Assembly: GCA_008125075.1 (NCBI GenBank)
Contig: VLTH01000001.1
Span: 1,028,671-1,092,670, forward strand
Length of the DNA stretch: 64,000 bases
Direction of reading: 5' to 3'
Source of the DNA: Acetivibrio alkalicellulosi
GTDB lineage: Bacteria > Bacillota > Clostridia > Acetivibrionales > Acetivibrionaceae
Shown here: piece after piece, positions 40,606 through 57,095 of the stretch
How the letters are laid out: each line of letters starts with the position of its first letter
How positions within the stretch are numbered: the first letter of the stretch is position 1
The notes under the pieces: model-generated
The model's input: the letters and a program-made list of their open reading frames with translations, nothing else
What the model was told of the DNA's origin: nothing
Database searches by the model: none
Program-made: the position numbers and the translations under genes

Positions 40606-43600
40606 CTAAAATAGTGACATCTGCTCCTGCTGTACCTTATAAAAGGCTGATTCCAAGCCATCATGGGACTTGACCAGTTTTGACTGTATTACGCTCATGT
40701 TCATACCTGTAAGTACCCTGTGAATTAAGCTGTAGACCACATCAAATTGCATATATATGTCAACTTGCATATGTCCTGTAAGACAAATCATCTGTGTATT
40801 TGTTGCCCTTGCTAAGTCAAATATATATGATAGAAGATAGTTTGCATTTGCCTGTCCGAAAGGATTGTCTATCCATATCACTTTTGATGATTCCTTCCAC
40901 CCTGTTTTTTTGTACCTTAAATATGAAATAATCGATATAAACATGGCAAAAAATCCTGCTAGCTTTTCTCCCCCTGACCAGCTTACAACAACTTCCCACG
41001 GAATATATCTTGATGCTCCTACTGTTGACTCTGGTTTAAATACTTTAATAGAGTATTCATTTAAGCTTGTTACAGCATCTAAAAGCCTTACAGGTGACAT
41101 TATCTTTGCTATTTCTCCATCAATTCGTGCTGGATCATATTTTCCCTCTTCCTTCATCTTTTCAATTTCACTTATTGAAGCTTCTATATAACGTGTCATC
41201 AATGCTTTACCCTCTTCTTTATGAAGTGCAGGCATTTCAATAATTACAGTTTTTCTACTTGTTCCTTCAAACTTTATTTTAGAAAAACCATCCACAGATT
41301 TTAACTCATCATAAACAGCCTCTGCCTTAGCATAGCATCGCTCTACTATCTCATCCTTATCTCTTAATGATTCCTCTAATTGAAAACTGGTTGCATTTTT
41401 CATATTTTCAACACTTTGTAGCATATCTTTAAAAAGTTCTTTTACAAAGCTATAGTTATACATGTCATTTTTGATAATCTTCTCTAATATCATTCGTATT
41501 GTAATGTTTTCAGCCCAATCAGCTTCCCTGTAAAGATTATCATAACTCTCATTGATGCTTATTTCAAAGTTATTAAGATTTTTAATTAATTCCTTATATT
41601 TTTTTCTATAATCATTAGCTATTACAGCAATGTTTTCAACAGGAAGCTGAATCATATCCCACATGGATATTGTCTGTTCATTATGTAAAACACTATCCAT
41701 ATTTTCTCTTGATGATGTTTTTATTACTATTTCATTTTCATTTATATAGTCCTCTAGCCTGTTTTTGTATTCTACAAGCTTCCCTTTTCTCTTTTCAACC
41801 TCTTCAAGTTTTTTAATGTTTTTTTGTTTTTTCCTATTGTATGCCTCTATTCCATCATTAAATGTCTTTTCATTGACGTTTTCTATATACTCAAAAGTAT
41901 ATGGTTCTAGGTTAAACCTTTTTTGAATTCCAATTTGTAGCTCTTCTGTTTTGCCTTCTAACACAGCAATTTCAAGAGATAGTTTACGCTCTTCACCATC
42001 TATTTTCTCATATTTTGTCTTAAGTCCATAGAGCTCTTTTTTGCTATTTTCTAAATCATCATAAGTAAAACTCTCTTTAGTCTCTTCAAAATCCTCTTCA
42101 GTAAAACCATTTAAGTGTATTTGGTTTAATAATTTTTCTGCATCTTTTTTACACTTATCAATAGACTTTCTAATTTCTTCAACCGCACTATCTTCAATTT
42201 CCCTTTCAAGCCCTTTAGCCCTTGATAAAATATAATCTAAAGTTCCATTTATTTTTTCTGTTGGCTCCTTTATATCAAGCTTTAGTGATATTTCATCAAA
42301 AAGCTTTGACCGATCCTCAATGTCTCGTTTATTGTCTTTTAAATTATCTTTTAAAATTTCAATCTTTTTCAGTAACTCTTGTAGTTCCTTATCAATTAAA
42401 GTTCTTTCCTCCTCAATATTCCTTTTCTTTTGTTCTTCTTCTTTTAGTTGCCTATTGAGCTTTTCTAACTTACCTGTAATTTTAACAAATTCTTTTAGCA
42501 TTTCTATATCTTTTTCTTTCTCCTCAATAAGCTTATTTGCACATGCCACATCATTAATATTCTTATCAATTAGTTCATTAAAACACTGTCTTTTTTCTTC
42601 TAATCCCTTTAAATCTGCTTCTTTTTTTGCAATATCATCTTGTATAGAGTTTAGACTATTTTGATTTTCACTTAAATAATTTATAGGATATAGCTCTTTA
42701 AATTCAAAGCATCTTTCCAAAAGACCTGTTATTTTTTCTACATCTTTTTTCATTATTTCATACTGTTCTTTTGTCTTGTCAATTTTCTCATCAAGACTTA
42801 TTAAATAGTCTTTAAACTTATCAGGCTTAAGTGAAAATACATTGTTTTGTGAAAACACTACATAAGCTTCCATGTCACCAAGTCTGTCAATTCCACCTGT
42901 CATTTCATTGCTTTTACCTTTTGTACTTATTCCATCCTGAGAATCTACTATAAATGTCACTGGAAAGTTTTCAACCAGTTCCAAAATTTCAGATGATATA
43001 TCATTTATCATTTGAAGTTGCCCTTTTTGAATAACAATTGAATGACACAAAAGAGGATTTTGATGCAAAAGCTCCCCTCTTAAATGATCTTCCTGATTTT
43101 TAAGCCACAATGATCCCGGTATACATCTAATGTCCTTTTCATTTAGCAACTCATAAACTTTTTTAAGTTCTATATCTGGTATATAATAATCACAACCTTC
43201 AAAAAGATACTTTCTCTTTAATAGTTCATGATACTTTCCCAATACATTTGATGCAGAGTTATCTATTTTTATTTTTTTAGCTTTTAATGCTTCATGTGCT
43301 TCATTACTATATATATCACCTAAGACCTCATACATGGATATCTCATTATTTAATTTAGAACACTTTTCATTATATAATAATATGTCCTTTTCAATATTAT
43401 TTTTCTTTTCAGCTGCTACTGCTAAAGCTTCTTTAATTCTGCTTTTTGTAATATCAACATCTTCGATTTGTTTTTTTGTCTTTTCTATTTCATCTGTCAT
43501 TTTTTTTATTTCATTTTCTAAACTTTCTTTTTCTTTTGAAAGTTTTTCCACTCCCTCATCCGCACCAATAAGCAATGTAACATCTTTAGCAAAGTATCTT

Positions 43601-45024
43601 GTGATCTTTGAATGTCCATCTTTTAAATCTATAATTCTTGTATTAATAGATGACAATACATCTCTTATACTATCTCTTTGAGTATTTATTTCTTCAAGCT
43701 TTTTAATAAGATTTTCTTTTTCCTTTATATGTTGTTCTTTTTTTTCTTCTAAGCTTTCCTTGTTTATTTTAAGTTTAGATAAATCATCATTTAAAAGCTC
43801 TTTTGCATAATAAAGACAATTTTGATACTCCTTATCTATTTCGCTTCTCTCTTTTGTTTTAGTTTCAAGCTTTGCCATAAGATTTGAAAGATGATTTCTC
43901 TGTTCTATCATCTCATTATATGCAAAATTTGATTCAATAAATTTTATCTTTTTATCATAATTTAAAATATCATTCTGAGTTTTTAAGACTTCTCTTTTAA
44001 TTTCTTCATGCCTTGATTTTAACTTTTCCATATCAATTATCTTATTTTGATAAAATAAGCTGTCTTTTTTGTATAAAAGCTCTTCGATTTTCTGTAAATA
44101 TTCATTATTCATCTCTTTTAATGATTCACCATCTTTATATAGCTTATTTACAGCAATAGATATAAGGTTTTCAAGTGCTAATATGTCCCTGCTTGTGTTA
44201 TTTATTTCTTCCACACTTACACCATAATCTTCAAGCTTTAAAAGAAGGCTATTAGCTTTATTGCAAAAAGCTTCATAAGTCTTTATGCTATGCTGATAAA
44301 GAGGTATGTTTTTTAAGTTTTCCAGATGCTTTTTAAAGGTTTGGGCTAAAATACCTTCACTTTCACCCTCTGTTGTAGGAATATTCGGAATGATAAGTTT
44401 TTCAATTACATTTCTCGACTTTCTTGCATTTTCAAAAAATTTATCAATACCACCTTCTGATTGATTTATAGTTTTGATGGCTTCAAATTCTTCTTTAAAA
44501 AGATTAAATGTGTGTATTTTATCCCTGTATTCTCTTTGTCTGTCCCTTGAATAAGTATTTATATTAAGCCTCATTTCAGAAGACATCCTTTTTAAGTAAT
44601 TATAATATTCTGAAAAATTGGCAACCTGTTTATCTTTATTTACCACTTCAATAGCTTTAATATCTAAATGGTATGGCAGAGTATATGTGTGAGTATATGT
44701 AAAAAATCTTATCCCATCTGCATTCTTAGAAACACATATTCCTGTCAAAAGGTACTCTCCCCTTGTTCCGTCAAGTTTCCATTCAACTAAAATATGTGTG
44801 GGAGATGCTCCTACTTTAAAGTAGTTTGAAAAATTCCTTGTACCCATACTTGTATTTGGCAACACTACTTGAAGTGCCAACTGGAGGATAACACTTTTGC
44901 CTCCACCGTTTTCAAGATTAATAAGGGAGTTTTTTGTGTCAAACTCATATAATTCATTTGATATATATTTTTTATCATCATCATATCTAAAATTAACTAT
45001 TCTAAATCTATTAATCTGAGGCAA
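40606..45024 (-). CDS. jetC: Wadjet JetC: SMC/MukB-like condensin ATPase
   Basis: 1472 residues. The N-terminal ATPase lobe has Walker A ENGGGKS (38-44). A very long antiparallel coiled coil (about 280-1150) is interrupted by a hinge-like region near 590-700 (CDYYIPDIELKKVYELL ... DRLGDMEAYVVFSQ). The C-terminal lobe has the ABC signature WSGGEKLAGFF and Walker B VIWIDNPFGQ. Wadjet complexes extrude plasmid DNA and cleave it through JetD. TTG start. jetB, which should overlap its start, is represented only by a 24-codon tail; the intact jetB lies 8.7 kb upstream. The separate transcription and stoichiometry are unusual. Confidence 0.92.
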   Translation of the reverse strand: MPQINRFRIVNFRYDDDKKYISNELYEFDTKNSLINLENGGGKSVILQLALQVVLPNTSMGTRNFSNYFKVGASPTHILVEWKLDGTRGEYLLTGICVSKNADGIRFFTYTHTYTLPYHLDIKAIEVVNKDKQVANFSEYYNYLKRMSSEMRLNINTYSRDRQREYRDKIHTFNLFKEEFEAIKTINQSEGGIDKFFENARKSRNVIEKLIIPNIPTTEGESEGILAQTFKKHLENLKNIPLYQHSIKTYEAFCNKANSLLLKLEDYGVSVEEINNTSRDILALENLISIAVNKLYKDGESLKEMNNEYLQKIEELLYKKDSLFYQNKIIDMEKLKSRHEEIKREVLKTQNDILNYDKKIKFIESNFAYNEMIEQRNHLSNLMAKLETKTKERSEIDKEYQNCLYYAKELLNDDLSKLKINKESLEEKKEQHIKEKENLIKKLEEINTQRDSIRDVLSSINTRIIDLKDGHSKITRYFAKDVTLLIGADEGVEKLSKEKESLENEIKKMTDEIEKTKKQIEDVDITKSRIKEALAVAAEKKNNIEKDILLYNEKCSKLNNEISMYEVLGDIYSNEAHEALKAKKIKIDNSASNVLGKYHELLKRKYLFEGCDYYIPDIELKKVYELLNEKDIRCIPGSLWLKNQEDHLRGELLHQNPLLCHSIVIQKGQLQMINDISSEILELVENFPVTFIVDSQDGISTKGKSNEMTGGIDRLGDMEAYVVFSQNNVFSLKPDKFKDYLISLDEKIDKTKEQYEIMKKDVEKITGLLERCFEFKELYPINYLSENQNSLNSIQDDIAKKEADLKGLEEKRQCFNELIDKNINDVACANKLIEEKEKDIEMLKEFVKITGKLEKLNRQLKEEEQKKRNIEEERTLIDKELQELLKKIEILKDNLKDNKRDIEDRSKLFDEISLKLDIKEPTEKINGTLDYILSRAKGLEREIEDSAVEEIRKSIDKCKKDAEKLLNQIHLNGFTEEDFEETKESFTYDDLENSKKELYGLKTKYEKIDGEERKLSLEIAVLEGKTEELQIGIQKRFNLEPYTFEYIENVNEKTFNDGIEAYNRKKQKNIKKLEEVEKRKGKLVEYKNRLEDYINENEIVIKTSSRENMDSVLHNEQTISMWDMIQLPVENIAVIANDYRKKYKELIKNLNNFEISINESYDNLYREADWAENITIRMILEKIIKNDMYNYSFVKELFKDMLQSVENMKNATSFQLEESLRDKDEIVERCYAKAEAVYDELKSVDGFSKIKFEGTSRKTVIIEMPALHKEEGKALMTRYIEASISEIEKMKEEGKYDPARIDGEIAKIMSPVRLLDAVTSLNEYSIKVFKPESTVGASRYIPWEVVVSWSGGEKLAGFFAMFISIISYLRYKKTGWKESSKVIWIDNPFGQANANYLLSYIFDLARATNTQMICLTGHMQVDIYMQFDVVYSLIHRVLTGMNMSVIQSKLVKSHDGLESAFYKVQQEQMSLF

Positions 45025-45082
45025 AATATCCCAACCCTTCTACAAATGATAAAATTTCTTTCTCGTCTGGATAATTTATAAA
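45011..45082 (-). pseudogene. 3' remnant of a second jetB, overlapping the jetC start
   Basis: Read in one minus-strand frame, this stretch encodes about 23 residues ending in a stop that overlaps the jetC start. The piece NYPDEKEILSFVEG matches the very end of the intact JetB (YYPESTRKKEILSFLEP), with a 3-codon indel. It then continues LGYFASD before the stop. There is no start codon; the left part merges into the stop of the AAA gene. It therefore marks the original jetB-jetC junction. Confidence 0.75.
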
Positions 45083-46230
45083 TGACCAAAATCATCTATA
45101 AATTGATTTACTGTTTCATAATTTACTTTATCTTTTGAACTTGTCTGTCTTTTAGATATCATGTAATTGTAAATATATATTTCAAAAATTTTATTATGTA
45201 TTTGCAAATTCGTTGTATTATTTTTAAAAATACTATATATTACACCTTTGTTGATTAAAGGATTAGCTATATTGTAAGTGTAATTTTTCCCACTTATCAA
45301 AATATCCTCTAATATTCTATATAAATCATTATCATTCTCTAGATTTTTAATTAAATCATCAAATAATGTGTTGGTTTCAGTAAGTAACTGTTTTACTGCT
45401 TCTAAAACACTTTCATTTGTCCAATAATCAATCTCCTCATCAATGATTTTGCATATCTTACTTACTAAAAATGGATATCCACTTGTGAAGTTGTAAATTT
45501 CCTCACTTATTTTATTTACATCTATTCCCTTTTTATGTTCATTTTCATATTCATTAAGCATTGTTGATATTTCAAATGAATTAAAACTCATATCAACTTT
45601 AAAATCTGATGCAATATTCCATGGAGAATTAAATTTTTTTTCATTATTAGGCATAATCTTGATTTTTAGATTTTTAATATCATATACTCCAGACAGTACG
45701 ACACTTTTAAATGTACTGTCTAATCCTTTTTCTCTTTCAAGATATTTATTTCTAAGCATACCAAGAAAGTGTAAAAAAATCTTATTATCACTACTCTTAT
45801 CAACTTCATCAATCAAAAGGATAATTTCTCGTTTGCAGTTTTTAATGAGTTGAGTTATTCTTTGAGATAATTTGTCAAAGCCATTTAAATCTTCTTTGCC
45901 TTTCTCCCAATTATCAATATTGATTTGCTCGACTTTATTATGTATTAAACTTCTAGTAACTAAATTAATAAATGCTTCAATAAAAGAATTCTCTGATGCA
46001 AAAGCATTCTCACCCATTGCTTCAAAACTAATGTCTATCACAATATATTTTTCTTTTAATCTATTGTAAATATTTAAAAGAGTGGTGGTTTTACCATATT
46101 GTCTAGCTCTGTTTATAGTAAAGTATTTTTCTTTTTCAATTAATTCTACAATTTGATTTATTTTATTACTTATATCAACCATATAGTGTTTTCTTGCAAC
46201 ACATACACCAGTTATATTAAATTCTTTCAT
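45076..46230 (-). CDS. AAA-like ATPase, probably lacking its nuclease C-terminus
   Basis: 384 residues from ATG 46230 (GGAGG 9 bases upstream; the 46311 start is rejected). The start MKEFNITGVCVARKHYMVDIS and an atypical Walker A RARQYGKTTTL, with Walker B IILLIDEVDKS, identify a clostridial AAA-like family. Homologues I recall continue past the FIDDFG region for another 130 or more residues into a PD-(D/E)XK nuclease. Here the stop falls at the junction with the jetB remnant, so the gene is probably truncated. A consensus promoter lies upstream. The role may be defence or mobile-element related; uncertain. Confidence 0.75.
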   Translation of the reverse strand: MKEFNITGVCVARKHYMVDISNKINQIVELIEKEKYFTINRARQYGKTTTLLNIYNRLKEKYIVIDISFEAMGENAFASENSFIEAFINLVTRSLIHNKVEQINIDNWEKGKEDLNGFDKLSQRITQLIKNCKREIILLIDEVDKSSDNKIFLHFLGMLRNKYLEREKGLDSTFKSVVLSGVYDIKNLKIKIMPNNEKKFNSPWNIASDFKVDMSFNSFEISTMLNEYENEHKKGIDVNKISEEIYNFTSGYPFLVSKICKIIDEEIDYWTNESVLEAVKQLLTETNTLFDDLIKNLENDNDLYRILEDILISGKNYTYNIANPLINKGVIYSIFKNNTTNLQIHNKIFEIYIYNYMISKRQTSSKDKVNYETVNQFIDDFGHL

Positions 46231-46267
46231 TTTTAATAATCCTCCAGAAAGTTTAAACACTATAATT

Positions 46268-46297
46268 ATTATAACCATAAACAATAAGAATTGCCAA
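46268..46297 (-). promoter_or_regulatory. Consensus-like promoter of the AAA gene
   Basis: On the minus strand TTGGCA (46292-46297), an 18-base spacer and TATAAT (46268-46273), 38 bases before the ATG. The bases around the -10 are nearly identical to those upstream of the alcohol dehydrogenase gene (39945-39975). The rest of 46298-46715 has no supportable gene. Confidence 0.7.
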
Positions 46298-46715
46298 TAA
46301 GGCAAATACAAAATTAAATGCTGAAATTAGCAAGATACTTAACCAGACTTAAAAGGTTTTAAATAATTAAGCATAAAGAAGAAAAACTAGAAAACTTAGT
46401 GTTTATTTTAATGCGACAAGGTCAATAATTTTCTTTCTATATTTTAGCACCTACACAACACAGTATTTAAACTTCCATGCCGTGTATTATAACTTGTATA
46501 ACTTAACATCGCTTTCGCCTTTGGAGATTTTGGAAGTGTTTACTACACTGTAAATTATACGGCAGGAGAATATTTTGTCATATACTTTAGATCACACATT
46601 TAATTCTCTTCGGTGTGGCTGGTGGATTAGATTTTGATTCATTAGAAATATTTCGACAACTATCTTGACAAACGATAAATCCTTTAAAGTATGACAAACT
46701 GTATTTAGTGAATTT

Positions 46716-47183
46716 TTATTGTTCTGCATAGTTAGTTGATAAGACACTTTGTACCTGCTGATATTCTGTTGGATTGAAATTTAATATACTATAGTCTCTA
46801 AGTAATAAACTTAAGAAACATTTATTCATATATGTTTTGATAAAGTTTAATATAGAATACACCATCGTGTAACAAACTTTTGATTCTTTTTTTGCAATAA
46901 TGTTTATTTTATCCATCGAGCATTCTCTAAACAAAAAACAAAATACCATTGATTTTGTTTCAGCTAAACAAAAATCATCACATTCATAGATGATTTGGTA
47001 TTCCTGTTCTATCAATATCTCTTTAAGTTGTTCTATAAGTTTACTATTACTCAAAGAACATAAATATTTTTCAATATTCAACTTTGCAATAACAATATCA
47101 TCAAAAATACTTTGACTATAAATTAAGTTTTTTGAATGCACAAACTCCTCATACAAAGTTTTTGTCACTTCAATACATGTCAT
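46716..47183 (-). CDS. Unknown protein, last gene of the phosphoesterase-MazG-Tmk-rSAM cassette
   Basis: 155 residues, no family recognised. ATG 47183 follows GGAAGG and overlaps the radical SAM stop (47180) by 4 bases, a sign of coupled translation. The protein looks largely helical, is Cys-rich for its size (about 8 Cys) and has no signal or membrane helix; the segment MVYSILNFIKTYMNKCFLSLLL is amphipathic-hydrophobic. Given its place, it may be a partner or small regulator of the radical SAM enzyme. This is inference only. Confidence 0.7.
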   Translation of the reverse strand: MTCIEVTKTLYEEFVHSKNLIYSQSIFDDIVIAKLNIEKYLCSLSNSKLIEQLKEILIEQEYQIIYECDDFCLAETKSMVFCFLFRECSMDKINIIAKKESKVCYTMVYSILNFIKTYMNKCFLSLLLRDYSILNFNPTEYQQVQSVLSTNYAEQ

Positions 47184-48106
47184 ACATAACCTTCCTTTGT
47201 GCTTAAACAGCATAATCTATACGTACTATTAATATTATACAGGTATTTTTTCAATTTATCAACATCAGAAATATGGCATATTTTATAATAAGGATTATTT
47301 TTTGTACATGCACATGGAAAAACATCCCCCAAATATGTAATATAAAGCAATCTTACTCCAGCTTCACACCCTCGTGAACTATCAAAAGGTCTACATGGCG
47401 CTATTTGAGGATATCCTGATATCGTAATCTGTGGAAAAAAGTTTTGTCGATTAAGATAATTGATTAAGATATTACAATGCTTGTTATGAGTTAAACACAA
47501 CTCATCCCAATTTTTTTTTGCATTACCATGCTGTATTAACTTCAATAATCGCACTTCAGATGCTCCAATAAAATTTGCATACTCTAAAATACCGTCAATA
47601 TCATTTTCGTTATCAGAATATATTACACTATTAAATTTTACATCAATACCTTCTTTTAAAAGATTTTTCATTGCATTATTCGTTAATAAGTGCGACGATT
47701 GAATGTTAGTCATTGAATCATGTATAACCGAGTCGTAACTGTATACTGATACATAACACATTTCTAATCCTATACTATGCATTTTTCTTGCTCTTTCATT
47801 AGTAATAGATTCTAAATTCCCTTCTTTATTAGATGTTATTCCTGATGTAAAAAGACCTACATGCGTATCAATAGGCTGTATGCTAACATGCTGTATCAAC
47901 TCACTAATATCTTTACTTAAAAGAGGTTCTCCACCTGTAAAAAACACATAAACCGAATATTTATTTAATAATTGAATTAATTGGGCAATATCTAAAAAAG
48001 TATATTTTCTTTTTACTTGATCTCGAATTAAATGAGATGAACAGTGTTTACATCTCAACTCACAATTGCGTTCAATTTCAAAATGAATTTCAAAAGGAAA
48101 TTTCAT
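47180..48106 (-). CDS. Radical SAM enzyme with SPASM-like C-terminus
   Basis: 308 residues. The cluster motif CELRCKHC (CX3CX2C) is near residue 14. FFTGGEPLLS (GGE motif) and conserved barrel strands follow. The C-terminal part has several Cys (APCRPF, RGCEAG, FPCACTKN, KICHISD, RLCCLS) arranged like SPASM/twitch domains with auxiliary iron-sulfur clusters. It lies 12 bases after the kinase gene and overlaps the 155-residue gene. SPASM enzymes usually modify peptides, but next to nucleotide enzymes it may act on a nucleotide. It is not obviously a prokaryotic viperin. Confidence 0.85.
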   Translation of the reverse strand: MKFPFEIHFEIERNCELRCKHCSSHLIRDQVKRKYTFLDIAQLIQLLNKYSVYVFFTGGEPLLSKDISELIQHVSIQPIDTHVGLFTSGITSNKEGNLESITNERARKMHSIGLEMCYVSVYSYDSVIHDSMTNIQSSHLLTNNAMKNLLKEGIDVKFNSVIYSDNENDIDGILEYANFIGASEVRLLKLIQHGNAKKNWDELCLTHNKHCNILINYLNRQNFFPQITISGYPQIAPCRPFDSSRGCEAGVRLLYITYLGDVFPCACTKNNPYYKICHISDVDKLKKYLYNINSTYRLCCLSTKEGYV

Positions 48107-48118
48107 AAATCCTCCTTC

Positions 48119-48754
48119 TTATAGTATTAAAAACTGTGAAATTGAATTCCAAATATTTTCAAAGACTTCTTCTATGCTTCCAGATGAATCAACAATAACA
48201 ATATTCTCTTCACTTTTTAATTTTTCAAATGCTTCAAAGTATTTATCTCTTACTTTTCTAAGCCGCTCTTCCTTTTCAAATAATTCCACGTGAAATCTCT
48301 CTCTCTCAATTCGTTCAAGAGCTTTTTTGACAGGAACATCAAGAAATACAGTTACTGTTGGACGTAAAATATCAGCACTAATTGAATTAGCTTGAATAAC
48401 CCAATCCATTTCCATGTCTACACTGTGATAAGCATAAGATGAAAAATAATATCGATCTGTAATTACCGTAATACCATTATCAATTTTTTGACATATTCCA
48501 TCTGTTTTATTTAATAAGTGATCAACTCTATCCGCAACAAATAGACTTGCAATAACTCTATTATCAGCAGAAATTCTACCTGTCATAATTTGATGTATTA
48601 ATGAACCTATAGGAGAATCAGTTGGCTCTTTAGTTTCATAACACCTTATACCGTAATCATTTAATCGATTTAATAAATTTCGAATTTGAGTGCTTTTCCC
48701 TGAACCATCAATACCTTCAAATGCGATAAATTCGCCCCTACTAATCTCGTTCAT
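48119..48754 (-). CDS. Thymidylate kinase homologue
   Basis: 211 residues from ATG 48754 (GGGGAG upstream, overlapping the MazG stop by 14 bases). The P-loop EGIDGSGKST (13-22), the DRYYFSSYAYH (DRY) motif, a lid with RERFHVELFEKEERLRKVRDKY and TVFLDVPVKKAL are typical of Tmk. Its place in a defence-like cassette instead of a DNA-replication operon suggests a second, specialised nucleoside-monophosphate kinase, perhaps for a modified deoxynucleotide. The housekeeping tmk should be elsewhere. Confidence 0.9.
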   Translation of the reverse strand: MNEISRGEFIAFEGIDGSGKSTQIRNLLNRLNDYGIRCYETKEPTDSPIGSLIHQIMTGRISADNRVIASLFVADRVDHLLNKTDGICQKIDNGITVITDRYYFSSYAYHSVDMEMDWVIQANSISADILRPTVTVFLDVPVKKALERIERERFHVELFEKEERLRKVRDKYFEAFEKLKSEENIVIVDSSGSIEEVFENIWNSISQFLIL

Positions 48755-49082
48755 AATGCTTAAATCTCCCCACATTCTTACTCATTTTGTTAATATATGC
48801 CTTTTCTATGTCAATATCTAGTTGGTACGATATTTTCAATATATAAATCAGCATATCAGCCAACTCTTCACTAATTTCGCTTATTTTATCAGCAAGTGTA
48901 AAATCTCCTCGTCGAATCTTTTTAACTATATTTGCGGTTTCGCCTAATTCACCAGTTAAAGATAATAATAAAAATTCTAGCATTTCAATATTATTTTCAT
49001 CTATTTTTACATCCCAATCAAAACGACTAACATGTTTTGAATCAAATTTTTTCTGTTTATCAATCAATTCTGAAAGATTCAT
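48741..49082 (-). CDS. MazG-like nucleotide pyrophosphohydrolase
   Basis: 113 residues, an all-alpha NTP-PPase. The metal-binding helices are visible: GELGETANIVKK (ExxE) and ISEELADMLIYILKI (ExxD). It would hydrolyse a (d)NTP to the monophosphate and pyrophosphate. ATG 49082 lies directly after the phosphoesterase stop, with AAGGAGAG at 7 bases. It probably supplies or removes the nucleotide used by the cassette. Confidence 0.88.
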   Translation of the reverse strand: MNLSELIDKQKKFDSKHVSRFDWDVKIDENNIEMLEFLLLSLTGELGETANIVKKIRRGDFTLADKISEISEELADMLIYILKISYQLDIDIEKAYINKMSKNVGRFKHYERD

Positions 49083-49083
49083 T

Positions 49084-50901
49084 TCAGCTCTCCTTAACAA
49101 AAGATTTTAATAAGTCAATAGTCTTTTTTATTTGTTTCCTTACATTATTTTTTAGCTCCTCCAACTCATCATATATCGACGTAGTTTCACGTTTATCTTT
49201 TATTTCTTTTAATGCTTCGGATATTTTTTTCATACTATCTAAAATACTTACATCATAGTGTTCAAGGTTTTCATATCGATTTACCCATTCAATAGAGTTT
49301 ATTAACTCTTCTATTCCTTTCGAAACAACAACTGTTTCAATATGACGATTTTTTCCTTCAAGAAGATTAATGATTTTATTAATATCTTTATTCCTCACAA
49401 TTTCTTGAATATCTCTTTTTGAAATTTCATGTGTTGCTAGTTTGTCTAATTCTGATTTTATAAAGCAACTAAAGCCATTTTCAATCTGTACTCTAAAAGC
49501 ATTAATATTAACTTCAATATTATCAAAACGTTTATCTTTTCTAACTTGTTCAGCCAAATGCAAAATTTCACATATATTAATTTTTAAAAAACGTCTTGCT
49601 TCTAGTGCTCGTAGATACATAGTTATAATAAGTGTATCCTCTTTTTCAAAGCCAAATTGTATAACCATCAGAGAAGGCAGAAAATAATCTTCTTTTCCAT
49701 CAATATCTTTCATGCTGATAGTAGATAGAACTGCTCTACTACTAGTTGATTTTTTCTTCAATGTATCAATAATATATGAAATGCCTTCTTTGTTAGATTC
49801 ACTGTTGTAATAATTCTCTCCATGCGTAAAATATAGTTCTTCAGGACATTTAGAGCTTTGCCATTTTGATGCAAGCGTGCCATAATCAAATTCAAAATCT
49901 TTATCTTTACTAAAAAAATGCTCCACATCTTTCTTGAATTCTGCATAGTTAAATCTTCCACACATACGTACATTGTACAGTCTTTTACTCATATTAAGTG
50001 AAGCAATAAGATCTTTATAAATATCACTTATTTTTTCTCCGCTAAAAACGTTTTTATCTCTATTGCTATAAATATTTAATTTCGTATCTTTCATTATTTC
50101 ATGCTCTTGATGCCTATCGTGATGATGTGTAAAGTTTGTTACTTCCTTAACTACTCCATTTTGGTATTCAATAAGATTAAATTGGGAGTTAACATCAGGA
50201 TAATTCCGACTAAATAAAGCTCCAACACCAATAATAGCACAATTACAACAACCAATAGAAATAGCATCTAGACCATGTGTATGTCCATGTAACAACATAG
50301 ATACTCTGTATTTTTCAATCACTTTAACAAAGCGTGCGGCATTAATAATAGATGACCTATCATTTTCATCCATGCTCATAATAGTATGGTGCAAAACAAA
50401 TATTTTCTTAGTACTTGAATCTAGTTGCTCAAGCAAACGAATTAATTCATCGTAGTTAATTTCTCCTTTATCTTTAGCTCCTTTATATAAAGAATTTATA
50501 AATATAATATCTGTAGTTAAGTCATCTTCTTCAATAGAAATGCTATAACAAGAAGACGATTTAAAATTATCACTTTCTTTATTATAATTATTAATAAAAC
50601 CTTTAAATTCAGTTAAGTCACCATCTATCAAATCATGATTACCTGGTACAAAACCAAATTTAACATTATAAGACGAAGCAAACTGACTTCTAATTTCATC
50701 TAAAACTTTTTTTACAAAGTTAAAAGCATTCTTATCGCCTTTATTTATCAAATCACCACAAACTACAACTAAAATTTGCTGATTAGTTGGTACTTCTTTT
50801 TTCACAGTCATAATAAGACTTTTTGTAATCTTTAAACAGCGATCTTCTTCTTTCTTGGTATCTTCCGAATTATGCAGATCAGATACTTGAATTATATACA
50901 T
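49084..50901 (-). CDS. Calcineurin-like phosphoesterase fused to a Cys-less thymidylate-synthase-like domain
   Basis: 605 residues. Residues 1-260 form a complete metallophosphoesterase: SDLH (7-10), CGD (48-50), GNHD (87-90), LHHT (170-173), GHTH (206-209). Residues about 339-476 follow the ThyA core in order: DYGTLASKW for the YGxxWRxW region, ISYIIDTLKKKSTSSRAVLS for the Arg-Arg phosphate loop, FLPSLMVIQFGF for LPPCHxxxQF, YLRALEARRFLKINICE for YQRSxDxxxGxPFNIA, and NINAFRVQIE for GDxHIY. The catalytic Cys is Leu411, so methylation is unlikely. The C-terminus (480-605) is helical. First gene of the cassette; ATG 50901 after GGTGG. The ThyA assignment is from pattern alignment by eye. Confidence 0.82.
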   Translation of the reverse strand: MYIIQVSDLHNSEDTKKEEDRCLKITKSLIMTVKKEVPTNQQILVVVCGDLINKGDKNAFNFVKKVLDEIRSQFASSYNVKFGFVPGNHDLIDGDLTEFKGFINNYNKESDNFKSSSCYSISIEEDDLTTDIIFINSLYKGAKDKGEINYDELIRLLEQLDSSTKKIFVLHHTIMSMDENDRSSIINAARFVKVIEKYRVSMLLHGHTHGLDAISIGCCNCAIIGVGALFSRNYPDVNSQFNLIEYQNGVVKEVTNFTHHHDRHQEHEIMKDTKLNIYSNRDKNVFSGEKISDIYKDLIASLNMSKRLYNVRMCGRFNYAEFKKDVEHFFSKDKDFEFDYGTLASKWQSSKCPEELYFTHGENYYNSESNKEGISYIIDTLKKKSTSSRAVLSTISMKDIDGKEDYFLPSLMVIQFGFEKEDTLIITMYLRALEARRFLKINICEILHLAEQVRKDKRFDNIEVNINAFRVQIENGFSCFIKSELDKLATHEISKRDIQEIVRNKDINKIINLLEGKNRHIETVVVSKGIEELINSIEWVNRYENLEHYDVSILDSMKKISEALKEIKDKRETTSIYDELEELKNNVRKQIKKTIDLLKSFVKES

Positions 50902-50971
50902 AACTCCACCTCTAATTCTAATTTTATGCAACTCCTAGACACTTGTAATTTGAAATTCAGTGCTCTTTTTT

Positions 50972-51180
50972 TCATTTATGTAGATTTTTTTCTTTATATT
51001 TGAATAAACATTTGCCTTCATAGCTTTTTTGACTAATATAATAATCAGACTCTAAATCAGAATTAATTTTATTTTTTAACTTTCAACTGAGCAATTTAGA
51101 ATTTTTGCTATTATTAACAATTGTTCAAAATCGCCCCACCTAGAAGAGTCCTCACGTTTATTATTGTCGAAATAATGCAT
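50972..51180 (-). pseudogene. Small frameshifted frame in the cassette leader
   Basis: From ATG 51180 a 34-codon frame (MHYFDNNKREDSSRWGDFEQ onward) ends at 51076. A second open frame begins one base off at 51079 and runs 35 codons to 50972 (DYYISQKSYEGKCLFKYKEK). The junction is an A6 run, so one small protein may have been split by slippage, or this is a leader peptide. No clear ribosome binding site; family unknown. It lies just after the predicted cassette promoter. Confidence 0.35.
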
Positions 51181-51209
51181 TTTAACTTTAATACGTCTTT
51201 AATTAAAAC

Positions 51210-51266
51210 ATTATACCATTAATTGTTTTGTTGTGTCAAACCACGTTTACACGTTTACACGTTTAC
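51210..51266 (-). promoter_or_regulatory. Cassette promoter with three tandem 8-bp operator repeats
   Basis: On the minus strand a perfect TTGACA (51234-51239), an 18-base spacer and a perfect TATAAT (51210-51215). Immediately upstream of the -35 lie three exact tandem copies of ACGTTTAC (+ strand) at 51243-51250, 51251-51258 and 51259-51266. The first gene starts about 300 bases downstream. A regulator binding these repeats would sit against the -35. Confidence 0.75.
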
Positions 51267-51896
51267 AAAAGTACAAAAGCGGTTACAATATTACATTATT
51301 ACATATTATAATGTATTAATAATACTATAAAATTATTTTGTGTTATTCTGTTTTTTTAACAACTTTTACACTCAAATCTATAATCAGTAATTTTAGTTCA
51401 TTAAAATTAAATCAGTTTTAATCCTTGTTTTAATGGATTTTACATTCCAACAGCCAAAATTGTTCTGAATCACTAATATAATATAATCATTCTATTCAGA
51501 AATTTAAGTCTATTATTTCTGACATTTTCAATCTGATATCCTGCACAAACCGCCTTCAAATATAGTTTTTTGTTTTAGAAAGACACTCATACACTTCTCT
51601 ATTTTTAAGGCTTTCAAGGAACACACCCACATTTTTAATATAAAAATGCAGAAAGATTATTAATGGGTAATATTTTACATTTAAATACTTTCCAAAACTA
51701 TTTAACATTACATCATAATCTTATTAAATATTGGATAGTAATGTCAAGAAGCTTTAATCTTTATATCTCTTTAGATCTTTAGAACTATAATACTTTATAA
51801 AAATTTTTATGCACGAAGTCCTGAGAGTAGTTCTTTTTTGGATTCTAAAAATATAATAATATTAGTTAATTATCTCCTGCTCATTTTCTCATATCA

Positions 51897-52058
51897 TCAA
51901 TAAGTACCAATATTACTCCCAAGTTTGTTTTCTAACTTTTCAATATCCTCGCAAAATTTCTTTACATTTTGTATCGCTTTATCAATATTATTTACTAAGA
52001 TTTCAGCATCATAACATGATTTCTTATAATTTAGAAACACCCTTATTAATTCATCTTC
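51897..52058 (-). pseudogene. Start-less coding remnant (coiled-coil tail)
   Basis: A 53-codon open frame with no start (stop directly upstream) encodes a helical piece (DELIRVFLNYKKSCYDAEIL, VKKFCEDIEKLENKL) ending TGA at 51897. Protein-like composition suggests the 3' end of a lost gene. The rest of 51270-51896 is very A/T-rich with no gene seen. Confidence 0.35.
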
Positions 52059-52128
52059 TGCCTATCTTCGCTTGGCTGTTACTTTAGGAATATGTAACAA
52101 TTTATTATGCTCAAGAGTAAACACTTCG

Positions 52129-52215
52129 TCACAATGTAACAGTGAAATACTTTTTTAAAGTTCTATCCGATTCTGATATCCTAGTTCTTTCTGCAAATGT
52201 TCTACTTTCTCTCAT
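52129..52215 (-). pseudogene. Truncated RloB-like gene start
   Basis: ATG 52215, three bases after the RloA-like stop and with AAGGAG upstream, opens 28 codons (MRESRTFAERTR ... RTLKKYFTV) and then hits a TGA. Intact RloB proteins, as I recall them, start with a similar basic stretch and then KYFxVxEGxKTE. The frame breaks just at that point. So the usual second gene of an RloAB pair is present but dead. Confidence 0.55.
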
Positions 52216-52218
52216 ACA

Positions 52219-53601
52219 CTAGCACTCCTTTATTGGGAAAACTGTGCTAAAAATTGGCACTCCTCCATAACGACCTTCTAAATAAGCTTTATCAATCTTC
52301 TTGTCAAACCTTTCATTATATTCTTCTAAAGAATATATATCTGTTTCCCCAGACTTCCTTTTATTCGCAAACCATATTTCATCTCGTCTTAGCAAATCAA
52401 AATCCATTAATCTTGATTCATGAGTAGTAACTATTAACTGAATATTACTTTTAGATGCTTTCTGTAAAAATGTTTCAATAAATTTATAAGTTAGACTTGG
52501 ATGAAGGCACCTATCTAATTCATCAACAACATATGTTTTGTTTTCTCCTGATAGTAAAATTTCCAATAAATCTAGCACTCTAATTGTACCATCAGATTCC
52601 TCTGCAAGATTAAATAAAACATTTTTTTCTCCATGGGAAAATTGTATAGTTTTACATGTAACCTTTTCATTTTTATCTATACTTAGAATAAAAAAATCTT
52701 TATCACTTCTCATAATGATACCTGTGCTTTTTAGTTTATCATTATTTTTTATTTCTACTGTTCTTTTTTCTAAATTTGCCAACAAAGCATTTCTTAATTG
52801 CTTCGGTAATTGGCTTGCTATTTTTTCGATTGGAACATTTACCATTTCAAAATTAGTAATTCCAGTACCAAATGCAGAAATCATTCTGCATATCTCTTCA
52901 ACATTTTCTGTATTTGCCATATAAGAATAATCTGAAATTGGTCTATCTGGATAATTAATATCTAATCCATCCTTAATCCACAAATAGATCTCTTTTAATA
53001 TTGATGCATTTTTATACTCTTGATAAAGATTTCTTTTATTTTGATTCATTACATATAAAAGTAATGTTGAACTATCATCTTTTATATCCTCAGCATAGAC
53101 TTTCATTTTATTCAATAATCCTTTTGTATTTAAAGAACCACCCAACTCAAAATGCCCATTACTTATATCCCTAGTAAACAAAACTTTTTCCTTATTGTCG
53201 GGTGTTAATTCTAATAACCATTCTGATAAAAACTTACTTTCATTCAACAGTACTTCAAAACCATACGAATAATACTTATCATCTAGCTTAATTTCAAACT
53301 CAAAATAACTTCCTATTGACTTATTTTCTGGATTTATTTTGCAATATTTATCGGTATGCCCTTCAGGCAATCCACTTATAACAGTTCTTTTCATAAAGTC
53401 CATAGCTTTTACTAAGTTTGACTTTCCTGCTGCATTAGCTCCATAAACAGCAGCAAGTTTCAATAGTTTTATATTTCCATCATCATATATATGCTCTTTT
53501 TTACTTCGCACTTTTCCTGCTAACATTGAGAATTCTTGGCTCTTTCCATCTTCTCTTGTTGAAAATGATAAATAATTTTTCACATTAAACCTTATAAGCA
53601 T
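52219..53601 (-). CDS. RloA-like AAA ATPase (AAA_15/AAA_21, ABC-like)
   Basis: 460 residues from ATG 53601 (GAGGAGGTG at 8 bases; an upstream start at 53658 is rejected). It begins MLIRFNVKNYLSF, with Walker A YGANAAGKSN near 55, an SMC-like insert, a signature region FSHGEKN, Walker B KTYVVDELDRCLHPSL and VTTHESRLMD. This is the OLD/RloA-type ATPase that normally works with RloB in restriction or phage defence. Its partner is truncated here (52129-52215), so the system is probably non-functional or the ATPase has another role. Confidence 0.85.
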   Translation of the reverse strand: MLIRFNVKNYLSFSTREDGKSQEFSMLAGKVRSKKEHIYDDGNIKLLKLAAVYGANAAGKSNLVKAMDFMKRTVISGLPEGHTDKYCKINPENKSIGSYFEFEIKLDDKYYSYGFEVLLNESKFLSEWLLELTPDNKEKVLFTRDISNGHFELGGSLNTKGLLNKMKVYAEDIKDDSSTLLLYVMNQNKRNLYQEYKNASILKEIYLWIKDGLDINYPDRPISDYSYMANTENVEEICRMISAFGTGITNFEMVNVPIEKIASQLPKQLRNALLANLEKRTVEIKNNDKLKSTGIIMRSDKDFFILSIDKNEKVTCKTIQFSHGEKNVLFNLAEESDGTIRVLDLLEILLSGENKTYVVDELDRCLHPSLTYKFIETFLQKASKSNIQLIVTTHESRLMDFDLLRRDEIWFANKRKSGETDIYSLEEYNERFDKKIDKAYLEGRYGGVPIFSTVFPIKEC

Positions 53602-53777
53602 TTTAAGCACCTCCTCATTCTCCAATATTATTATATGTGATTTTCTCACTTTTAACAACTTTATTAGAAATTTATTCTCTTAAAAATGATTTTTTATACG
53701 TTTTTTTCACTTTTATTTAATTGTTCTTTTTTTCTAATATATTATTGAGTATGCCACACATCAAAAAACAAAGTCCC

Positions 53778-54488
53778 TTATGGTTCTAAAAATGATAAAA
53801 TTTCTTTCTTTCTCGTACTTTCAGGATAATAACTTATAACAAGGGTTTCCATTTTATCTGTTGTATATATTTCACTGTCACCATCAATATTTACAAGTCC
53901 CTGTTCTTTTAAGAAATTAATAGTTCTTCTTATGTAACTAATCTTTGTTCCTTTTGACTGAAGATAATTTTTAATCTTTTCATCATATGTTGGAATGTCA
54001 AGCCATAGCTTTGAAACTTTTCCAAAATTAAAATTCAATGACTCATCAATATTTTCTTGATCCTCATTTTTATCAATAGACTGCATTTTTGCTGTTATAT
54101 AAGCTTCTAGTTCTTCTACTTTTAGCATTGAGCGAACTTTATTGTTATAATTCTCACCATTAAAAAACTTTATTATGATAGATAGAATTATAGTATATGA
54201 TACGTATAGCTCTGTATTATTGGAAAAACCCATTTTATCTCTAAGTTCTTCATTGGTAAAACCAAGAAATTTGTTGTCTGTTCCCGGAGTATAATATAGG
54301 GTATCCCCTGACCTTAATATCATTATTCCTGCTTCTTCTTCAAAAATGCTTGTTATAAAAGATATTTCTGGATCTTCATAGTCTAAAAAACTGTCGCTGT
54401 TATCTTTTTTTGTTATTTTAGACTTTTCAATCAAACTCAAATACAGTTTAAAAGCCCTTCTCACCGACTCAGGAGATAGATTGTCCAT
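53778..54488 (-). CDS. jetB: Wadjet JetB (KITE/MukE-like subunit)
   Basis: 236 residues. Two winged-helix-like regions typical of KITE proteins are suggested by helical SVRRAFKLYLSLIEKSK and C-terminal ISYIRRTINFLKEQGLVNIDGDSEIYTTDKME. It bridges the JetA kleisin and the JetC ATPase. ATG overlaps the jetA stop (TAATG). The C-terminus ends EILSFLEP, whereas a second copy of this tail at 45011-45082 continues EGLGYFASD, so this product is probably cut by about 7 residues at the insertion point. Corresponds to DUF6063-type proteins as I recall. Confidence 0.8.
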   Translation of the reverse strand: MDNLSPESVRRAFKLYLSLIEKSKITKKDNSDSFLDYEDPEISFITSIFEEEAGIMILRSGDTLYYTPGTDNKFLGFTNEELRDKMGFSNNTELYVSYTIILSIIIKFFNGENYNNKVRSMLKVEELEAYITAKMQSIDKNEDQENIDESLNFNFGKVSKLWLDIPTYDEKIKNYLQSKGTKISYIRRTINFLKEQGLVNIDGDSEIYTTDKMETLVISYYPESTRKKEILSFLEP

Positions 54489-56065
54489 TATTTTTCACCT
54501 CTAATTATAAAATCAGTAATTTCATTCCCATTTTCAAATTTTATTTTTTTTCCTGTTGACACTAAGATTAAAGACTTTAATCCTTTAAAATGAGGATTTT
54601 TATCAAATATACGGTCAAAAAGATAGTATATATTTATATTATATGCTGATGTATCTCTTACCATATTTGCCAATAAATCTTCTAAGTCTTTAAAATCAAT
54701 GTACTTATGTTGATGAAGTATTACAACAAGGCTGTAAAAATCAAAATCATATGAAACACCTTCTAAATATTTTTCATCAATACATTTAATGGCTGAAGAA
54801 AGGGTTGACTTTCCCTTCTCAAAAGCTTCTTTAATTATTGACTCAAGGTATGCTTCAATCTTTTTATCTCTTTTTTCTCTAATCTCTTTTTCCTCTTCTT
54901 CTTTTATTAAAAGCTGTGCTTCAATATCTATTTTTTCTCTTTGTTCTTCCTCAGCTTCACCTTTAACCCTTTGATGGTCTAATGCCTTAAATGGGTTAAA
55001 TGCTTTATTTGAAGCTGTATTTGAAAAAAGTGGAGCTAGAATGCTTTTTAATGCTTTAAAATCTAAATCTTTTGAAATAATATCATCAAATATGCTCTTT
55101 TCAAAGTCTATATATTCACTCACCCCTTGTCGGAGTCTTATTTCAATTGTCTTTAAATACTCTCCTACTATATCAAGTTTTTCATTAAATAGCCTATCAT
55201 GCTCTGATGTAGCGATATTAAGCCTTTGAGATAAAATCTTTAGTTGATCTAAATTTTTAAGTTCTCTTTGGCTTAGATCATTATAATTTATCTTTTCAAT
55301 ATTTGACCTCTGCTCTTTTAAAATTCTTTTGATGTTTTGAAATTCACGTCTCTCTGTTTCAAACTGCTCTTTTATCTTTCCAAAAAGCTTTTTTAAATCT
55401 TCAAAATCTATTCCCAATACATTTTGGCGTATATTTAAAAGAAGGTTTTCAAGCCTTTCTCTTAGCTGCCGTACTTGTAGATTAAGTTCATTTACAGTTT
55501 GTAGAGCCCCTGAAAAAACGCCCTTTTCAATCTGCTGTTTTAAATACATTTGAGTTATATTTATTCTAAATTCAGAGTAAATCTCTCTTGTTTTAAAAAG
55601 CATTTCCATTCCCTGATCTGTAAGCTTATATTTAGCAGCTTTTTTTATTTCATAGTATGATGTGTCTATAAGTTTTAATGGAATTGTTTCATCCCTATTA
55701 TTTTCTAAATTTCTATATTTAAAATCAACTATTTCTCCGCCACTTCCTGAAATAGAATCTCTTATGTAAAACGCCATTTCTTTAGACTCTTCCTGAGTCA
55801 TATTAACGTTATATGAGTTTTTTATTATGGTCTGAAGATAGTCTGCTATATCATCAATACTACATTCTTCACGACCAATCAACATATTTTCTAAAATAAA
55901 AAGAAGTACTGAAAAACCCACCGACACCATATCATAGTTTTCATATTTTTGAACCCCTACAAGCTTTCTTCCTAAGTGAATAAAAGGTGCTAGGTTTTTC
56001 ATTCTTTCCCTAAAATCTTTAAGACAATCACTTCCTGTTCCTTCATAAACTCTTTTTTCTTCCAA
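54488..56065 (-). CDS. jetA: Wadjet JetA (kleisin/MukF-like subunit)
   Basis: 525 residues. An N-terminal winged-helix region (about 35-190), a central coiled coil (about 195-330), a charged, Glu-rich linker (EEEQREKIDIEAQLLIKEEEEKE) and a C-terminal helical domain match the clostridial JetA family (DUF5716-like). It links the JetC heads and recruits JetB. TTG start, with AGGAGG 10 bases upstream inside the end of jetD (23-base overlap). Confidence 0.85.
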   Translation of the reverse strand: MEEKRVYEGTGSDCLKDFRERMKNLAPFIHLGRKLVGVQKYENYDMVSVGFSVLLFILENMLIGREECSIDDIADYLQTIIKNSYNVNMTQEESKEMAFYIRDSISGSGGEIVDFKYRNLENNRDETIPLKLIDTSYYEIKKAAKYKLTDQGMEMLFKTREIYSEFRINITQMYLKQQIEKGVFSGALQTVNELNLQVRQLRERLENLLLNIRQNVLGIDFEDLKKLFGKIKEQFETERREFQNIKRILKEQRSNIEKINYNDLSQRELKNLDQLKILSQRLNIATSEHDRLFNEKLDIVGEYLKTIEIRLRQGVSEYIDFEKSIFDDIISKDLDFKALKSILAPLFSNTASNKAFNPFKALDHQRVKGEAEEEQREKIDIEAQLLIKEEEEKEIREKRDKKIEAYLESIIKEAFEKGKSTLSSAIKCIDEKYLEGVSYDFDFYSLVVILHQHKYIDFKDLEDLLANMVRDTSAYNINIYYLFDRIFDKNPHFKGLKSLILVSTGKKIKFENGNEITDFIIRGEK

Positions 56066-57095
56066 AGTTCAACGCCTCCTGAGGAATATATCTGTTATTA
56101 TAGAGTATCCCAGTTATTTCTTTTTTGCACCTATCGTCAAAATACATTAGAAAAAGCTCCATAAAAATTTCTGTCTGACAACTTTTTAAAACTGGTGGAT
56201 TTTTAGCCACACAAAGAAGTTGCTTATATAATTCTACATGTGGAATAATCAAATGTTTTCCGTACTTATGAGCTAATGAATTAAATATCCCTATTCCTTC
56301 AAAATCTAAATCTCCAAAGTAGTATACTTTATCTATTGCAACTCCCCTAGCCACTTCATTTATAAATTTAAAGCTATTTACTATTTTCTTTCCCTCACCA
56401 TATATTAACATATCTATAGTAGTATCGTAAAGAGACTTATCTTCTCTTCTTTCAAGGTATTTTAAAACAGAAAAAAAAGTATCCTTATTTTCTATTATTA
56501 AAATATTAATTCTTTCTTTTGGCTCAAAGAGGATATAAAAAAAAGCCTCTAAAGTTTTATAACAATTTAAATCCTCCATTGATATTCCTAATCTTTTTAA
56601 TATAACCTTTCCTTTTCCATCTAAAAACTTCTCGTCATTAAATATTTCAAAAGACCTTTCGTTCATTGTACATCTATAGTTTAATGAGCAGGATTTTAAT
56701 TCATCTAAAAGGTATTTAGAAATCATCAGCACATATTCTCTATCATCTTTATAAATATTGGGATTTCTATGATAAAAGTCCTTATCAAGCTTTGGGTGAA
56801 TTGATTTAAGCTCATTTAAAAGCCTATTAAAGTCTTCTTTATCATCATCTTTTTTTAGAATTATTCTGTATTTATTATACAGGGCAGGATTTCTTCCATT
56901 GGTTTTAGAAGCTTTTACTGGTGAAAGAATATCTTTTAAACAAAAGTCATTTATAACAGATACAAGTTCTCTATATCCACCCTTTATTTCAAAACCTTCA
57001 CTTCCAAAATGCTCTTCAGCTTTTGAGATTATCTGTGGCGTTTCTATATTTTTCTTTGAATTATTGACTATTAAATTATATATAAACTTATCCAT
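56043..57095 (-). CDS. jetD: Wadjet JetD (Toprim nuclease subunit)
   Basis: 350 residues. N-terminal DNA-binding arm domains (about 1-190) and a C-terminal topoVI-A-like Toprim domain with Glu202 in ILIIENKD and Asp262/Asp264 in YYFGDLDFEG, all intact. JetD cuts the looped plasmid. First gene of the operon; GGGGGA site before ATG. The promoter must lie in 57096-57300, where I see no clear consensus. Confidence 0.9.
   Translation of the reverse strand: MDKFIYNLIVNNSKKNIETPQIISKAEEHFGSEGFEIKGGYRELVSVINDFCLKDILSPVKASKTNGRNPALYNKYRIILKKDDDKEDFNRLLNELKSIHPKLDKDFYHRNPNIYKDDREYVLMISKYLLDELKSCSLNYRCTMNERSFEIFNDEKFLDGKGKVILKRLGISMEDLNCYKTLEAFFYILFEPKERINILIIENKDTFFSVLKYLERREDKSLYDTTIDMLIYGEGKKIVNSFKFINEVARGVAIDKVYYFGDLDFEGIGIFNSLAHKYGKHLIIPHVELYKQLLCVAKNPPVLKSCQTEIFMELFLMYFDDRCKKEITGILYNNRYIPQEALNFGRKKSL

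Follow-up and report, generated by a model that had tools for sequence, protein, structure and literature searches.

A 64,000-nucleotide stretch of the genome of Acetivibrio alkalicellulosi (contig VLTH01000001.1, positions 1,028,671 to 1,092,670; hereafter the window) carries, inside a Wadjet III defence operon, five closely spaced genes whose products are a metallophosphoesterase (MPP) fused to a pseudo-thymidylate synthase (pseudo-ThyA) domain, a MazG-type nucleotide pyrophosphohydrolase, a thymidylate kinase (Tmk), a radical SAM enzyme and a protein without a family match. Why should such a set of genes be found there, and which of them belong together? We find that the recurrent unit is the MPP, the pseudo-ThyA domain, MazG, and a radical SAM enzyme or a ThyA homologue. 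We regard this set as a probable and so far undescribed system of defence that works by reading or altering a pyrimidine nucleotide, and we place a probability of about 0.4 on the reading that it is an antiviral cassette in which the MPP is the effector and the pseudo-ThyA domain a switch that reads that nucleotide.

A recurrent unit and its local additions

The MPP, the pseudo-ThyA domain and MazG are encoded consecutively, and in that order, in all six lineages found to possess the pseudo-ThyA domain: the window, a second genome of the same genus (G004), Oceanirhabdus (L006) and Fusibacter (L007), both of which are Clostridia of the Bacillota, a genome from another class of the window's phylum (G475, locus L014), and Escherichia coli (L003). 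Such consistency is not a matter of chance. As the searches that led to these lineages used gene 1 or the ThyA-like domain within it, the MPP and pseudo-ThyA parts are present in all of them by design, and the count of six out of six thus speaks for the company that this domain keeps. A locus from a metagenome-assembled genome (L005) is nearly identical to that of G004 and was not counted as a lineage of its own; it was one of three loci recovered from genome contigs with alignment A2, a scan with gene 1 alone having found nothing.

The radical SAM gene is located close behind this trio in five of the six lineages, with tmk standing in between in the window. In E. coli its place is taken by a Cys-bearing ThyA homologue (L003, 12006-12941), followed by remnants of mobile elements. 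That one operon can carry either a radical SAM enzyme or a ThyA in this place suggests that the two serve a common chemical purpose, acting on a pyrimidine nucleotide. Amongst solved structures, the one nearest to the E. coli homologue is the CMP 5-hydroxymethylase MilA (5.8e-22), and the printed alignment places an Asn of the E. coli protein opposite an Asp of MilA, as would suit a uracil-type substrate. In phages, the proteins that match the homologue best are thymidylate synthases from Pseudomonas phages.

A first-pass annotation of the window had proposed all five genes as one nucleotide cassette. The five were found together in this genome only, and are thus not the conserved unit; Tmk and gene 5 are local additions, each present in one of the six lineages. 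The broader idea, a cassette for nucleotides that recurs in the vicinity of defence genes, is supported. Tmk (48119-48754) exceeds the cut-off of TIGR00041 (2.7e-45) and matches Thymidylate_kin of Pfam (2.3e-43), as well as PDC-M51B (1.3e-18) and VakA (1.1e-11) of PADLOC. It is 62% identical to the product of a gene beside a ProC-like gene in another genome of the same class (neighbours named by eye), and matches were identified in 24 other genomes among 391, where the six neighbourhoods inspected by eye resemble ordinary housekeeping surroundings and lack the cassette; in one of the six (L046), a small phosphoesterase-like gene lies 5.6 kb from tmk. Given these relatives and its presence in a single lineage, Tmk was rejected as a core part. 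Gene 5 (46716-47183, 155 residues) has no match in Pfam, NCBIfam, PHROGs or PADLOC, and its matches amongst the 391 genomes are restricted to its own genome and one marginal case at E 9.1e-4.

MazG (48741-49082, 113 residues; PF03819, 1e-6) retains its ExxE and EExxD motifs in an alignment of five homologues, and the sixth lineage, L014, reads the same motifs. The radical SAM protein (47180-48106; PF04055, 4.6e-15) carries a CxxxCxxC motif and five C-terminal Cys residues, all conserved in five of five homologues, an arrangement that is SPASM/twitch-like.

In the window, the five open reading frames on the minus strand and the spacings between them are as first annotated. The most likely start of gene 1 is the ATG at 50901, preceded by agaggtggag, rather than the first TTG at 50931; its stop at 49086-49084 is followed by the mazG ATG at 49082, the end of mazG (48741) overlaps the tmk ATG (48754), a 12-base gap separates tmk from the radical SAM gene (which starts at 48106), and the stop of the latter overlaps the gene 5 ATG at 47183. 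The operon's own promoter likewise holds up, with TTGACA and TATAAT spaced by 18 bases, a TG before the -10 and all 12 consensus positions matched (51210-51239, minus strand), although promoter-like sites overall are not enriched over shuffled sequence (58 found versus 51.1 +/- 6.7 expected). Directly upstream of the -35, 3.2 tandem copies of the 8-bp unit TAAACGTG (51242-51267, minus strand; TRF, 100% matches) form a possible, putative operator. The leader between promoter and gene 1 is approximately 300 nucleotides long and contains a 34-codon open reading frame (51076-51180) with a further broken frame after it; by eye, no leader gene was seen to be shared amongst the small open reading frames upstream of the homologues.

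Of 58 genomes in the order, 2 have a match to gene 1 at E 1e-15, as do 3 of the 391 genomes of the class, one of them over the MPP part only, and a pseudo-ThyA profile at E 1e-6 matched 2 of 398 genomes of the phylum. Two of 72,556 plasmids matched, both from E. coli and typed as conjugative. In E. coli, a 5-kb query around the cassette is covered to at least 80% in 4 of 5,426 genomes, and a further genome (H7, with 65% of the query) carries the four genes. Identity correlations between the cassette proteins ranged from 0.31 to 0.78 (Spearman), with 10 or 15 pairs each, too few for a claim.

The phosphoesterase and its pseudo-ThyA partner

Gene 1 (49084-50901) encodes an MPP domain at residues ~1-255 (Metallophos, PF00149, 2.4e-14), a pseudo-ThyA domain at ~285-470 (PF00303, 7.8e-4) and a C-terminal helical bundle at ~495-605. 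An intact phosphoesterase joined to a ThyA-fold domain was proposed at the outset, and the MPP motifs DxH, GD, GNHD, HH and GHxH are indeed all present in six of six homologues. In two of these lineages (G475 and E. coli) the MPP and pseudo-ThyA parts are separate genes, which suggests that the pseudo-ThyA switch is a separable module.

The NCBIfam models nearest to the MPP are DS9_1 (1e-16 for the window and 6.6e-26 for E. coli) and DS8, with scores far under the model cut-offs (60.9 versus 420 and 51.6 versus 790 bits). The metallophosphatase catalytic residues of DS-8 and DS-9 are described as required for phage defence, and the targets cut by these enzymes as not known (PMC13092281). The cassette thus shares with DS-8 (MPP-NACHT) and DS-9 (MPP with a HAD phosphatase) a related MPP domain with intact motifs, but differs in falling far below the whole-protein cut-offs, in having no Pfam match to NACHT or HAD, and in possessing the pseudo-ThyA domain, MazG and the radical SAM enzyme. 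A 1463-residue protein of another genome of the class (G276; L009, 8617-13008), which has sub-cut-off matches to NACHT antiphage models, begins with an MPP 36% identical to that of the window, and this type of MPP therefore sits on other immune switches too. On a plain reading of these relatives, it is an effector that has been placed under different switches.

To characterize the domain that follows the phosphoesterase, its structure was predicted twice with AlphaFold2 from four sequences, once with the window sequence first and once with that of Oceanirhabdus first. The second model had a best Foldseek E of 2.7e-5 against the PDB, with 22 of 646 matches at E 0.001 or better; by title, the best 50 of the 646 are thymidylate synthases, dihydrofolate reductase-thymidylate synthase fusions and dCMP hydroxylase/monooxygenase. 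Its top VIA match is the phage dCMP hydroxylase AfhB (Z 13.2, root-mean-square deviation 3.3 over 164 residues), followed by MilA (Z 12.1) and many thymidylate synthases (Z 10.3 to 11.1); one designed helical protein (Z 10.5) aligns to the C-terminal bundle. For the first model, the best 50 of 447 Foldseek matches by title comprise thymidylate synthases, dihydrofolate reductase-thymidylate synthase chains, MilA, dCMP hydroxylase/monooxygenase and one designed serine hydrolase, and its VIA list consists mostly of matches to the helical bundle. In the second model the central domain clearly has a ThyA fold, so that the ThyA match anticipated from the sequence is confirmed by the Z of 13.2 and the Foldseek E of 2.7e-5.

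We then mapped the pocket residues from the alignment of six homologues through the PDB profile-search alignment to E. coli ThyA. The position of the catalytic Cys (C146 in E. coli) is Ser in all six homologues, Ser410 in the window, with a Pro-Ser pair lying on the Pro-Cys of ThyA. The first-pass annotation was therefore correct about the loss of the nucleophile and off by one in naming Leu as its replacement, as Leu411 is the next residue and falls on the His position that follows the Cys. The two best ThyA chains in the profile alignment themselves carry Ser at the Cys position, and the majority of the remaining E. coli ThyA chains rank below them in that search (E about 1). In ThyA, R166 is the second phosphate Arg and N177 the Asn that reads the base. 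Arg389, Arg431 and Asn442 of the window protein lie on R127, R166 and N177, respectively, and are invariant across the six homologues. R126 and R127 are described as making contact across the dimer with the phosphate of dUMP, and C146S ThyA as forming a dUMP complex that is used in binding studies (PMC5981203).

The pseudo-ThyA domain looks like a nucleotide binder rather than an enzyme: with the predicted fold and part of the pocket kept, and Ser in place of the nucleophile, it should bind its ligand without turnover. The Asn at the base-reading position in six of six homologues, where MilA has Asp, argues for a 4-oxo base. The domain thus resembles members of the thymidylate synthase superfamily such as AfhB and MilA in its fold, and retains the R127- and R166-like Arg residues and the base Asn of ThyA, but is set apart from them by the invariant Ser, the fused or paired MPP and the added C-terminal helical bundle.

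At the sensitivity used, the phage and viral collections yielded no close relative of the pseudo-ThyA domain. Scans of viral contigs with gene 1, alignments A2 and A9 and a hand-written pattern returned no relative, and a whole-protein alignment (A3) returned three weak matches to the MPP part. One of 50,697 phage records matched, over residues 46-255, and the ThyA-like part has no phage-family matches apart from weak ones to thymidylate synthase families of phages (PHROGs, E 4e-4 to 5e-3). A phage origin of the cassette was rejected on the basis of the viral-contig and phage-record scans, which start from exact short motifs and so do not prove rarity.

A block within a Wadjet III operon

The cassette lies within an 8.75-kb block (45025-53777) that separates jetB from jetC, and that also contains an AbiLi-like AAA ATPase (52219-53658, minus strand; PADLOC AbiLi, 4.9e-80) and an AAA-ATPase-like protein (45076-46311, minus strand; PF09820, 3.3e-7). 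The Wadjet components are separate genes that flank the block, all on the minus strand: JetC3 (40606-45024; PADLOC, 8.4e-91) on one side, and JetB3 (53778-54488; 3e-101), JetA3 (54488-56065; 1.1e-199) and JetD3 (56043-57095; 2.4e-92) on the other. In relatives, jetB and jetC are adjacent in eight of the eight cases examined, with spacings of 13 to 98 bases; they come from the nine genomes, besides the window's own, that have a close JetB match, with G010, where the gene lies at a contig end, and distant JetB-like proteins left aside. One such distant match is present in the window's own genome (G000:C2:1470477-1471109, E 2.9e-19). The two ends of the block repeat the 3'-end sequence of jetB in direct orientation, and 20 bases are identical within an imperfect longer repeat, as after a site-specific or repeat-mediated insertion. 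No integrase was seen among the open reading frames of the block. The jetB/jetC junction may be a site at which insertions into a defence operon occur. After the AbiLi-like gene, in the place where one would look for its partner, positions 51880-52230 contain only broken frames by eye, likely a decayed second gene.

Across chosen neighbours of each cassette, known or candidate defence genes were identified in five of the six lineages. Those of the window are Wadjet III and the AbiLi-like gene. In G004, a type III-like methyltransferase lies 3.7 kb from the radical SAM gene, beside a large gene without a PADLOC match; G475 has Ppl and the candidate family PDC-M02A/B; Oceanirhabdus has a piece of a type I restriction enzyme 5.5 kb upstream; and E. 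coli (L010, 16746-18860) has an Avs2-like C-terminal piece and the candidate family PDC-S50, with several insertion sequences around. In Fusibacter nothing turned up beyond a short protein that partly matches NsnC, and this lineage was scored as negative.

Readings of the cassette

The reading that we favour is sensing, with the phosphoesterase as effector, in preference to the building or clearing of a nucleotide. The pseudo-ThyA domain would bind, without turnover, a deoxynucleoside monophosphate with a uracil- or thymine-type base, in plain or modified form. Monophosphates are the form that ThyA folds bind, and MazG would cut a (d)NTP to its monophosphate. The radical SAM enzyme, or the Cys-bearing ThyA homologue in E. 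coli, would change the base or sugar of that nucleotide, such that the two enzymes together may supply or clear the ligand; in the window strain, an extra dTMP kinase would have joined the pathway. Infection would disturb the pyrimidine pools, the state of the ligand would change, and the phosphoesterase would be released onto an essential phosphodiester or nucleotide target. In this scheme, the switch ligand, its direction of action, the phosphoesterase target and the role in phage defence itself are what we infer. The fuller proposal, that a retired thymidylate synthase has become an immune sensor which reads a uracil- or thymine-type nucleotide set by MazG and the radical SAM enzyme (or ThyA) and licenses a phosphoesterase effector, is a tentative one.

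Several observations weigh against the sensing reading. The PF00303 match to gene 1 scores 19.1 bits, below Pfam's 24.3. Both structural models are of moderate confidence, with a predicted local distance difference test score (pLDDT) of 65 when the window sequence is first and 75 when that of Oceanirhabdus is first, and none of the 447 Foldseek matches of the former reaches E 0.001. The PDB profile search is topped by a designed coiled coil (0.06), with ThyA chains from 0.1 and annexins from 0.28, and hhalign against a small ThyA alignment is weak (probability 46%, 40 columns). In the pocket, all six homologues lack the R126-like Arg, half of the pair that clamps the phosphate, and have Ser or Asn instead, and the sugar-holding residues of ThyA are not clearly retained. 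The homologues are few, at six lineages; the mobile-element remnants behind the E. coli cassette mean that the presence of ThyA instead of a radical SAM enzyme could reflect partial loss; and the figure of five lineages with defence neighbours is a raw count, uncorrected for background, that includes pieces and candidates. Finally, MazG and the radical SAM enzyme could equally form a product-making pathway in which the MPP is the last step.

This last point leads to an alternative in which the cassette makes an antiviral nucleotide in the manner of prokaryotic viperins, whose product is a 3'-deoxy-3',4'-didehydro nucleotide. MazG would provide a nucleoside monophosphate, the radical SAM enzyme (or ThyA) would modify it, and Tmk or host kinases would convert the product to a triphosphate that poisons phage synthesis, with the MPP/pseudo-ThyA protein trimming or storing the product to protect the host. 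We consider this unlikely, if worth keeping in view. A radical SAM enzyme with an intact CxxxCxxC stands beside nucleotide enzymes and resembles the pVip profiles of PADLOC (7.1e-12), as Tmk does VakA, and the E. coli ThyA homologue is nearest to MilA; the radical SAM protein is also similar to cytosylglucuronate decarboxylase (5.3e-6), a nucleoside-antibiotic enzyme. The viperin reading of the radical SAM gene is weakened, however, by nearer relatives: within NCBIfam, a library that differs from that of PADLOC, the NirJ2, TIGR04053 and PqqE models all score better than pVip (each below its cut-off), the best PDB matches are SkfB and PqqE, and there are the five C-terminal Cys residues. Phage relatives of the protein amount to five weak records. 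The cassette shares with the prokaryotic viperin operons of pVip and VakA a radical SAM gene together with a nucleotide kinase, but that kinase is found in one of six lineages only, whereas the MPP and pseudo-ThyA parts, which served also to find the loci, are in all of them and are added here along with MazG. Furthermore, synthesis has no need of a dead ThyA.

A second alternative keeps the pseudo-ThyA pocket as a switch and reverses its sign. In a metabolite-controlled toxin-antitoxin system, MazG and the radical SAM enzyme or ThyA would keep making a nucleotide that holds the MPP off through the pseudo-ThyA pocket, and the toxin would act once phage shutdown of host expression, or a change in the pool, drained that nucleotide. 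That an effector-like gene leads a tight operon is consistent with this, as is the precedent of Clover (CloA dGTPase and CloB), described as having an effector switched by thymidine nucleotides, which the phage changes, and an inhibitory nucleotide product made by a partner enzyme (PMC12265719). The likeness to Clover is one of analogy, namely an enzyme effector under nucleotide control with a partner enzyme, and the five proteins have no Pfam match to an HD dNTPase or a nucleotidyltransferase. As the arrangement fits an activating ligand equally well, and toxicity is hypothetical, we regard this scheme as having a low probability.

Similarly doubtful is a detector or destroyer of phage-made modified pyrimidines, in which the pseudo-ThyA domain captures 5-modified dUMP- or dCMP-type nucleotides, products of the phages' own ThyA-family enzymes, and MazG and the MPP either remove them or trigger the response. 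The nearest structures, AfhB and MilA, would suit such a role, and a phage dCMP hydroxymethylase (Gp42) ranks second in the viral library. A parallel exists in DndF, whose nucleotide-kinase domain has been proposed to sense phage-modified nucleotides (PMC10853773). The invariant Asn, with its implied 4-oxo base, speaks against this capture, which moreover has no need of the radical SAM enzyme. Least probable is an ordinary salvage or sanitation cassette with no defence role: every part of known family is a nucleotide-type or radical SAM enzyme and Tmk resembles a housekeeping dTMP kinase, but the host possesses a ThyA of its own as well as a further Tmk-family gene, and the patchy distribution, plasmid carriage, site inside Wadjet III and defence genes in five of six neighbourhoods argue otherwise.

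The view that the cassette is no named defence system is supported by PADLOC, where gene 1, MazG and gene 5 each match 0 families at E 0.1, and by NCBIfam, where none of the three exceeds a model cut-off. We found no description of the gene set in the openly licensed literature, though it may have been predicted elsewhere amongst nucleotide-centric conflict systems. The systems validated by DefensePredictor include thymidylate synthase and 5-hydroxymethyluracil kinase domains, to which a legend adds dNMP kinase and NMAD, and MazG is amongst its predicted, still unvalidated, defence domains (PMC13092281). Those systems share with the cassette the use of nucleotide-modification domains in defence; the text portions compared name no MPP-ThyA fusion or radical SAM enzyme, and as this comparison is by description only, the two may overlap.

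If the sensing reading is true, the cassette would be, as far as our searches reach, the first defence family with a pseudo-ThyA switch, perhaps with a new nucleotide signal made by a radical SAM enzyme. A recognisable pyrimidine-nucleotide pocket serving as a regulatory module would make the question of what triggers the MPP testable by ligand binding, and the natural E. coli version could be tested in K-12. The task shared by the radical SAM enzyme and ThyA may in turn lead to a nucleotide signal or antimetabolite that is possibly unknown to date.

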